This document shows positions 53,757 to 56,288 of a stretch of DNA of 64,000 nt, piece by piece. Where the stretch lies: positions 1-64,000 of the forward strand of contig CACEFK010000003.1 in NCBI GenBank assembly GCA_902558835.1, read 5' to 3'. The position numbers and the translations under genes are program-made. How positions within the stretch are numbered: position 1 is the first letter of the stretch; every line of letters starts with the position of its first letter. Below the pieces are notes generated by a model that made no database searches, had not been told where the DNA came from, and worked only from the letters and a program-made list of their open reading frames with translations. This stretch comes from an uncultured Pelagibacteraceae bacterium (GTDB lineage: Bacteria > Pseudomonadota > Alphaproteobacteria > Pelagibacterales > Pelagibacteraceae).

Positions 53757-54640
53757 GAAAACCACAATTAGTTGATTATTTGTTGTTGACATTGTTGTCA
53801 TTAATATGGGCGTCTGCTTTTTTTAATATAAAGATTGCGACATACTCATTCGGACCTATTACAATAGGTTTTTTAAGATCTTTTTTGGGAGCTATACCAG
53901 TTTTAATTTTATGTTTTTATAAAAATATAAAAATTGAAGCATTCTCAAAAGACTGGAAGTGGTTTGCAATCATTGGATTGGTAAATTTAGTTATTCCATT
54001 CATACTAATATCTTATGGAGTGAATTTTGTTCAAAGTAACTTAGCAGCTATCTTGATGTCCACAACACCATTAAGCTCAACAGTTCTAGCTCACTTTTTT
54101 TTAAAAGGAGAAAAATTTAACTTATTAAAAACAATTGGATTATTAATAGGATTTTCAGGAATAGTATTTTTGTTTTCAGATAACTTTTTAATTAATGAAA
54201 ATAACTTTATTGCTGCACTGTTGATTCTTCTTGGATCTACCTGTTATGTAATCGGAGGAGTTATAACATTAAAAATAAGCAATAAAGAAAATGAAAATGT
54301 TACGGGTTCAATTTTAATTTGGTCTACAATTATACTTCTTCCATTCACTTTAATTTTTGAAAAACCTTGGATGTTAAATCCCTCAACAGACTCAATTATA
54401 TCTGTAATATATTTAGGAATTTTTCCTACTGGTATAGCATGGTTATTGAGATTCAGAATTTTAAAAACAAATGGTCTCATATTTCATTCACAGGTTTCAT
54501 ATATCATTCCAATATTTGGAATTATTTTAGGATACATATTTCTTAATGAAATAATTACCTCAAAAATTATTGTTGCATTAATTGCTGTATTTATTGGAAT
54601 ATATTTAGCAAGAAAAGCAGATTATAAAAACGTTACTTAA
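53753..54640 (+). CDS. EamA/DMT family transporter
   Basis: 295 aa, 10 TM, LLTLLSLIWASAFFNIKIA. Confidence 0.87.
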   Translation: MRKPQLVDYLLLTLLSLIWASAFFNIKIATYSFGPITIGFLRSFLGAIPVLILCFYKNIKIEAFSKDWKWFAIIGLVNLVIPFILISYGVNFVQSNLAAILMSTTPLSSTVLAHFFLKGEKFNLLKTIGLLIGFSGIVFLFSDNFLINENNFIAALLILLGSTCYVIGGVITLKISNKENENVTGSILIWSTIILLPFTLIFEKPWMLNPSTDSIISVIYLGIFPTGIAWLLRFRILKTNGLIFHSQVSYIIPIFGIILGYIFLNEIITSKIIVALIAVFIGIYLARKADYKNVT

Positions 54641-55535
54641 GCTTTGCCATTGCTTTTATGTGAGCAGGACCAGTTTCACAACAACCTCCAATAATTGTTG
54701 CTCCATTTTTTTTAAATTTTTTTGCAATTTCATGAAATTTATCTGGTGTAAGATCATGTCTTTTTCCTAAAAACTCATTTGGATTTCCCTTAGTTTTTAA
54801 ATAATTAGCTGTGTATCCGTTTTTTGGTTTAGTGGTCAAAAATCCATTTAATTTAAATCCAAATGGTACGTTTAATTTTTTGATTTCTTCAAGATTGTGC
54901 TCATAATTTTCAGGTGAAACACAAGACAACATGACGCCTAAAAGATTTCCATCAATAATACTTTTAATATCTGAAATTTTTTCACCACTAGGTAACTTTG
55001 TACCTTCTGAAATATGAATTCCTATTAAATAAGGTTTTTTGAATTCTTTAATTGCCTCAATACCACATTTAAACTCTTTAATGCTGCTCCAAACATCAAA
55101 GTAATAAAAATCTACATATTCATTTAATAATCTAGCCTGTTCATTAAAGTCTTTAGTGATTTCAACCTCACTTCTTATATCCTCTTCATAAGTTAAACGT
55201 TGAGGTGGCAAACCTCCAGCAATCATTATATTTGGATATTCATTTTTCACTTTTAAAGCAATTTCTCCTGCTTTTTTATTAAGATATTCGAATTTATCTT
55301 CAATGTTGTTTTCACTTAGTCTTTTTCTTCTTGTGGTAAAAGTTGTTGTAACAATTACTTCTGCCCCAGCTTTTACAAAATCTTTGTGAGTACTCTCTAC
55401 CAATTCATGATATTCAGAATTTAGTATCGCATTAGCACTCCATAAAGTTCCATTTGGCTTCATGCCTCGAGCCAAAAGCTCTTGACCCATTCCACCATCC
55501 AATATTCTCGTCTCTTTAAAAAAATTAATATCCAT
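54633..55535 (-). CDS. bhmT: Homocysteine S-methyltransferase family protein (bhmT/mmuM-like)
   Basis: RILDGGMGQELLARG, VMLSCVSPENY, IIGGCCETGPAHI Zn-Cys pattern; preceded by SAM-II/SAM-V-like elements. Confidence 0.82.
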   Translation of the reverse strand: MDINFFKETRILDGGMGQELLARGMKPNGTLWSANAILNSEYHELVESTHKDFVKAGAEVIVTTTFTTRRKRLSENNIEDKFEYLNKKAGEIALKVKNEYPNIMIAGGLPPQRLTYEEDIRSEVEITKDFNEQARLLNEYVDFYYFDVWSSIKEFKCGIEAIKEFKKPYLIGIHISEGTKLPSGEKISDIKSIIDGNLLGVMLSCVSPENYEHNLEEIKKLNVPFGFKLNGFLTTKPKNGYTANYLKTKGNPNEFLGKRHDLTPDKFHEIAKKFKKNGATIIGGCCETGPAHIKAMAKLK

Positions 55536-55553
55536 TGTTTCCTCACTTTTTTA

Positions 55554-55598
55554 GTACTTTAGCTTTATGCTAGGTGCACAATACAGTTCAACTACCTT
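55554..55598 (-). promoter_or_regulatory. SAM-V-like riboswitch aptamer (gene-proximal of a tandem pair)
   Basis: Minus strand AAGGTAGTTGAACTGTATTGTGCACCTAGCATAAAGCTAAAGTAC: P1 AGGT/ACCT, loop UUGAACUGUAUUG, 3' AUAAAGCUAAAGU, pseudoknot ACU/AGU; followed by RBS GTGAGG (55546-55541) and ATG 55535. Confidence 0.8.
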
Positions 55599-55615
55599 GC
55601 TTATTTGATTATTTT

Positions 55616-55670
55616 GGGATTTCCATTTTAGCAGTTTATGCCCGCAATAGGATCAAATCGGCAATTAACT
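55616..55670 (-). promoter_or_regulatory. SAM-II-like riboswitch aptamer (distal of a tandem pair)
   Basis: Minus strand AGTTAATTGCCGATTTGATCCTATTGCGGGCATAAACTGCTAAAATGGAAATCCC: P1 TGCC/GGCA, GAUUUGAUCCUAUUGC loop, GCUAAAAUGGA, pseudoknot UCC/GGA. Confidence 0.82.
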
Positions 55671-55697
55671 TTTAATTGATAAATGAATGTTTGTAAA

Positions 55698-56288
55698 CTA
55701 TTTATCTAAAATAATTTTAGCATTAAAAGAAAAAGATCTTCTTTCAGCATTAATATTAAATGGATATGCAGTATGCATCAAATAGTTTGGAAAAATTATC
55801 AAGTCTCTTTCTTTAGGCACAATATTAAAAATACTTCTGCTTAAAAAACCCCTCTGTCCGTTTATAAAATCAATTGTGCCATTAGTCTTATCTTTTTTAT
55901 TTTTTAAAAGTTTATTTTTAGTCATATTTTTTGGGACTTTTAAATAACCCACACCAGATATATCTCCATCATGATAATGAATAGGGTTATATTCATCTTT
56001 AAATTGACTAACTACCCATAAATTTAATATTTTTATACTTTTAACTTTTTTAATTTTTTCATTTTTAAGAAAATCTTTGATATTTTTTTTTATTTCTCTC
56101 TCTAAATTCTTTTTTATAAAATTATTTGAAATTTTAATTTCTTTTTTAATTTGACTGGCTAATTTAGAACTATAATCATTATTTTTTGTTAAAACTTTAT
56201 TATCAATCTCTTTGTTCAAGATATTCAAAAATTTCTTTGAAATTTTTGTCTTTCCAATTGATGGACCAAAAGGCTTAATATTTTTCAT
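55698..56288 (-). CDS. Putative 2OG-Fe(II) oxygenase
   Basis: NPIHYHDGDISGVGYLKVP (HxD) and FPNYLMHTAYPFNINAERRSFSFNAKI (H...R). Confidence 0.72.
   Translation of the reverse strand: MKNIKPFGPSIGKTKISKKFLNILNKEIDNKVLTKNNDYSSKLASQIKKEIKISNNFIKKNLEREIKKNIKDFLKNEKIKKVKSIKILNLWVVSQFKDEYNPIHYHDGDISGVGYLKVPKNMTKNKLLKNKKDKTNGTIDFINGQRGFLSRSIFNIVPKERDLIIFPNYLMHTAYPFNINAERRSFSFNAKIILDK

Follow-up and report, generated by a model that had tools for sequence, protein, structure and literature searches.

A terminator-less tandem of a short SAM-II-type aptamer and a SAM-V riboswitch in the mmuM leader of Pelagibacteraceae

The mmuM leader

The window analysed here, a 64,000-nucleotide stretch of Pelagibacteraceae DNA, carries a tandem of two pseudoknot aptamers on its minus strand at 55554-55670. 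An earlier note on this DNA had proposed a SAM-II-type element followed by a SAM-V element before a homocysteine S-methyltransferase gene; both of the sequences it quoted are found at this position and the tandem itself is borne out. The leader fills the 162 bases that separate a 2OG-Fe(II) oxygenase gene (55698-56288) from the homocysteine S-methyltransferase gene (54633-55535, minus strand), whose 300-aa product matches PF02574 with an E value of 1.8e-53. Judged by this domain and by its mmuM relatives, the gene behind the tandem is an orthologue of mmuM, a gene found in 147 of the 300 genomes of the genus that were searched. Its identification as bhmT was ruled out on the same grounds, bhmT being a separate gene with a different leader in genome G026.

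The downstream element (55543-55606, minus strand) is a clear SAM-V aptamer, scoring 72.3 bits against RF01826 (cut-off 41; E 6.8e-10 for the 64-kb window), and is the sole Rfam match above its cut-off within these 64 kb. Its P1 pairs AGGU (55597-55594) with ACCU (55575-55572), and its main P2 pairs GUGC with GUAC. The AGU of the Shine-Dalgarno region AGUGAGG (55541-55547, minus strand) pairs with ACU (55587-55585) to form P2a; this region is where the mechanism of the SAM-V class operates (PMC6061858).

A -35-like box, TTTACA (55692-55697), and a -10-like box, TTAAAA (55670-55675; mostly TATAAA in relatives), lie 16 nt apart on the minus strand ahead of the upstream aptamer. A simple promoter scan of the window's leader returned nothing at its threshold. 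TTTACA-like and TATAAA-like boxes, again about 16 nt apart, are nevertheless kept at a like distance from the aptamer in 59 mmuM and metY leaders, which suggests a promoter. Because the boxes end about 8 nt before P1, the mRNA is predicted to start at the upstream aptamer.

A short-P1 variant of the SAM-II aptamer

The upstream element (55618-55668, minus strand) consists of P1, P2a and P2b, the last with two G-C pairs and a bulged U, and is without P3, as seen both in the sequence and in an alignment of relatives. P1 pairs UGCC (55663-55660) with GGCA (55642-55639); this stem, like that of the downstream aptamer, pairs as the earlier note had written it. The same note named UCC/GGA and ACU/AGU as the pseudoknot pairs of the two elements; both are present but correspond to the short P2a helices, and the main P2 pairs, AUUGC/GCUAAA upstream and GUGC/GUAC downstream, were absent from it. 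In the window, the two upstream P2b strands lie at 55644-55648 (AUUGC, placed from the alignment of 28 copies) and 55627-55632 (GCUAAA, invariant in those copies). A second copy of SAM-V was ruled out for this element by its 2-bp P2b and the lack of P3. We therefore read it as a short-P1 variant which, on its layout, is of SAM-II and not SAM-V type.

Both P1 and loop 3 are compact: P1 spans 3-4 bp, and loop 3 has a length of 5-9 nt, with 4 exceptions among 203 copies gathered by a pattern that left the 3' strand of P1 free. The P1 of the crystallised metX SAM-II has about 6 bp. A 3-bp core of P1 is kept in 202 of the 203 copies, and it survives double changes from GCC/GGC to ACC/GGU in 3 copies and to GUC/GAC in 10, although such events are few and formal counting of pairs on 28 sequences gave a modest result, with little covariation. 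P1 is broken in one leader, L055. When the SAM-contact and triple positions of the SAM-V crystal structure were mapped by eye onto 28 diverse copies, their equivalents, including the UUU triplex strand (55655-55657, minus strand), were invariant except for one (PMC6061858). Since the contact bases are conserved in this way, the upstream aptamer probably binds SAM.

The note had also held that the two elements match the SAM-II and SAM-V consensus. This stands for SAM-V; the upstream element, in which the lengths of P1 and loop 3 differ, reaches 15.1 bits against SAM-II (RF01726, cut-off 44) and 13.2 bits against SAM_alpha (cut-off 36), both below threshold. We do not take the low score as evidence against the element, because the HTCC1062 bhmT SAM-II, a published example, also has no match listed in the Rfam scan. 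The SAM-II model was dropped as a yes/no test for this insensitivity. The classical SAM-II at metX in the window's own genome (L003 1501-1575, G000:C4:22717-22791) likewise lies below both cut-offs, at 32.9 bits of 44 and 25.2 of 36, and Rfam-based annotation therefore under-counts SAM-II in SAR11. Against R1, a covariance model built from 28 diverse copies, the window's upstream element scores 73.8 bits, a figure that includes the element's own contribution to the model.

R1 finds the element in 118 of 397 genomes of the family, and for near-complete genomes the count is 70 of 140; a second draw of genomes, from the order, overlaps the family draw. Exact copies of a 23-base core, GCCGATTTGATCCTATTGCGGGC, are present in at least 119 genome stretches, and the 80 among the matches listed all come from Pelagibacteraceae/Pelagibacterales. 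Among mmuM leaders gathered from the 300 genomes of the genus, the element is nearly unchanged in about 45 orthologues, and the remaining 83 examined do not fit the search pattern. Many mmuM orthologues have no riboswitch leader at all, the gene following directly on a TauE-type or 2OG-Fe(II) oxygenase coding sequence (L057, L059 and L061, for example); regulation has thus been gained or lost repeatedly.

Over all collected loci, the element and SAM-V occur together without a T-run terminator, defined here as the lack of a T7 run, in 122 metY and 55 mmuM leaders. The window's own genome has this terminator-less tandem at metY too, and so does G026, where the bhmT leader has a classical SAM-II, a terminator and SAM-V. 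In some metY and mmuM leaders (L052, L062 and others) the element stands alone and SAM-V is missing. Five sister-genus leaders (L184, L186, L189, L191 and L192) combine the short-P1 element, an intrinsic terminator and SAM-V, and the linker bases beside their SAM-V are again complementary to the 5' side of the aptamer; it is plausible that such leaders represent an intermediate.

Four metY leaders from other genera of the family (L253, L255, L258 and L260) carry a lone short-P1 element with a GUC/GAC P1 and no SAM-V, together with a linker GCUUAG and a Shine-Dalgarno region CUAAGGAG, identified by eye. It is possible that GCUUAG pairs either with the CUAAAGC of the aptamer or with the Shine-Dalgarno region, which would make these leaders translational SAM-II switches. 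Outside the family, R1 gave five weak and heterogeneous matches among 240 genomes of the class. A SAM-II-like sequence, GATTTGATCCTATTGC...GAGCTAAAACGG, was seen outside the family at about 1500-1560 of L412, before a gene whose protein begins MKTFYVNARYLIVPVMTIATILG. The leader had no match in phage records.

Linker complementarity and a model for coupling

No intrinsic terminator was found by the terminator scan in the window's linker (55597-55621, minus strand). The linker can instead pair with the 5' side of the upstream aptamer, AUCAAAU (55609-55603) with AUUUGAU (55658-55652) and GCAA (55600-55597) with UUGC (55664-55661), giving 7 + 4 pairs in all and a duplex of -10.3 kcal/mol (p 0.038 against shuffled linkers). 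This helix is absent from the lowest-energy fold of the window's leader. The energy of whole-leader folding, compared with shuffles, gave a z of -0.18, a measure that is uninformative for pseudoknots.

The complementarity is clearest at metY, where the bases just 5' of the SAM-V P1 read AAAUCGG or similar and are complementary to CCGAUUU, a stretch of the upstream aptamer made up of the 5' strand of P1 and the triplex strand. In the metY leader of the window's own genome the two sides read CCGAUUU and AAAUUGG. Pairing of the metY linker lies above the shuffle mean in 102 of 111 leaders, with only 12 reaching p<0.05 singly. The registers differ at mmuM, where the complement takes the form AUCAAAU, AUCAAUCUGC or AAUUGGU and pairing gives a mixed signal (24 of 43). 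In two leaders a change on the aptamer side is answered in the linker, GCUGAUUU pairing with AAAUUAGU in L055 and UGCCAA with UUGGCA in L189. In folds of whole leaders, the mean pairing between aptamer 5' side and linker was 0.52, against 0.14 for shuffled linkers, across 83 terminator-less leaders, and was near zero in 13 classical GCUGAUUU tandems. Swapping linkers among 17 clustered representatives weakened the pairing (p 0.0003); with 16 representatives clustered differently, classical ones included, the swap gave p 0.01, and the linker alone p 0.035, although these shuffle and swap statistics overstate independence, the leaders being related by descent, and their figures should be read as guides. 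By eye, no consistent helix was seen between the freed linker and either the Shine-Dalgarno region or the 3' P1 strand of SAM-V. As drawn, the aptamer fold and the linker helix are mutually exclusive, and a switch between the two would be expected.

We consider it reasonably probable that two SAM aptamers of the SAM-II/SAM-V superfamily are arranged here in series without a terminator, and that the upstream one and its complementary linker switch with SAM. In this model, SAM-bound SAM-V would close over the Shine-Dalgarno region and turn translation off, as is known for the class. At high SAM, the upstream aptamer would form during transcription, before the linker emerges, and at low SAM the linker would capture the aptamer's 5' side. 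The output would then run through SAM-V folding, translation or mRNA stability, rather than through hairpin termination, and its sign could go either way. A sharper or two-threshold SAM shut-off of a single gene is the likely consequence, through an effect of the upstream aptamer on expression that we infer.

Several alternatives were weighed against this model. The locus might be a further copy of the published bhmT-type tandem, with the upstream SAM-II terminating transcription and SAM-V blocking translation. The order of the aptamers is identical, and several of the sister-genus short-P1 leaders place a terminator hairpin and U-run ahead of SAM-V; however, the gene is a different one, and no terminator-like site is present here or in the set of leaders without a T7 run (122 at metY, 55 at mmuM), all of which makes such a copy improbable. 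The earlier note had drawn this parallel with bhmT and assigned the SAM-II element to transcription: the bhmT-type arrangement does not hold for an mmuM gene with no terminator between its aptamers, and a transcriptional role finds no support in a leader whose terminator scan is empty. A protein-binding DNA operator would account for a block that is short, very conserved and adjacent to the promoter. We regard this as very unlikely indeed, as the block comes after the promoter boxes, where the mRNA is predicted to begin, has a SAM-II pseudoknot layout with compensating P1 changes, and occurs with methionine and SAM genes.

The upstream element could also be a degenerate SAM-II relic that binds no SAM, leaving SAM-V alone to regulate. 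An Rfam score far under the cut-off, the broken P1 of L055 and the silence of the SAM-II domain in the full-length bhmT tandem (PMC11508383) are all in keeping with a relic, yet the contact bases are invariant, P1 survives two double changes, the element is retained in leaders that lack SAM-V (L052, L062 and others), and the published bhmT SAM-II also goes without a listed Rfam match; decay to a relic thus seems to us quite unlikely. More serious, though still doubtful, is the view that the upstream aptamer binds SAM while the complementarity of the linker is without function and each aptamer acts on its own, both on translation or mRNA stability. The mixed mmuM signal and the position of the window's linker helix outside the lowest-energy fold would suit independent aptamers. 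Set against this are the conserved AAAUCGG-type linker end before SAM-V at metY, absent from classical tandems, the linker changes in L055 and L189 that track changes in the aptamer, and the pairing probabilities of real compared with shuffled linkers.

Published data fit the coupled model without proving it. Under sulfur limitation, mmuM mRNA rises 6.1-fold and metY mRNA 7.1-fold, with only a translational switch listed for either (PMC5069961), and the SAM-II of the bhmT tandem is kept from responding to SAM by the linker (PMC11508383). The mRNA changes can also be explained by translation-coupled decay. More broadly, we tentatively propose that across Pelagibacter the metY SAM-V and its mmuM sister may form the downstream half of a terminator-less tandem not described before, whose short SAM-II-type aptamer, at the very 5' end of the mRNA, and complementary linker would act as a switch that couples both aptamers and sets the sharpness of the SAM shut-off, perhaps at the mRNA level.

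Relation to known SAM riboswitches

Among the original 120 examples SAM-II always lies 5' of a terminator (PMC9481103), and in HTCC1062 it is listed only at bhmT and metX, with metY and mmuM given SAM-V only (PMC2704228, PMC5069961). As far as the open literature goes (Poiata et al. 2009 lay outside this scope), the tandem of short-P1 element and SAM-V that precedes mmuM and metY with no terminator in between is a new variant. Its novelty, as read from sequence comparison, would lie in the short P1 with a short loop 3, in a promoter from which the mRNA should begin at the aptamer, and in a linker that can base-pair with the 5' half of the aptamer, clearly so at metY and with a mixed signal at mmuM.

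Few bacterial groups in the ocean outnumber SAR11, in which control of the methionine genes falls largely to RNA. Should the upstream aptamer prove functional, the switches at metY, where SAM-V has been crystallised, and at mmuM have so far been studied as half of a natural device, and affinities and dose responses need remeasuring on the full leader. A working upstream aptamer would also offer a possible explanation for the response of metY and mmuM at the mRNA level when sulfur is limiting, and a direct way to test why SAM-II falls silent next to its linker at bhmT.

The closest known system is the bhmT tandem of Pelagibacter ubique (PMC2704228, PMC11508383), in which a SAM-II-type aptamer likewise lies 5' of SAM-V before a methionine-synthesis gene, with SAM-V overlapping the Shine-Dalgarno region. 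The tandem described here differs in preceding mmuM and in having no terminator after the upstream aptamer, whereas bhmT has a terminator hairpin and U-run after SAM-II. It also differs in its 3-4 bp P1 and short loop 3, and in a linker complementary to the 5' side of the aptamer, a pairing not predicted for the classical tandems. The downstream element is, at 72.3 bits, a member of the SAM-V class (RF01826; metY crystal structure, PMC6061858), set apart from the class as described by its place behind a second aptamer, a trait shared with the metY SAM-V of both G026 and the window's own genome. The upstream element shares with SAM-II (RF01726, RF00521) the P2b of two G-C pairs and a bulged U, P2a, the lack of P3, the UUU triplex strand and GCUAAA, and departs from it in the 3-4 bp of its P1, its shorter loop 3 and a score below the Rfam cut-off.
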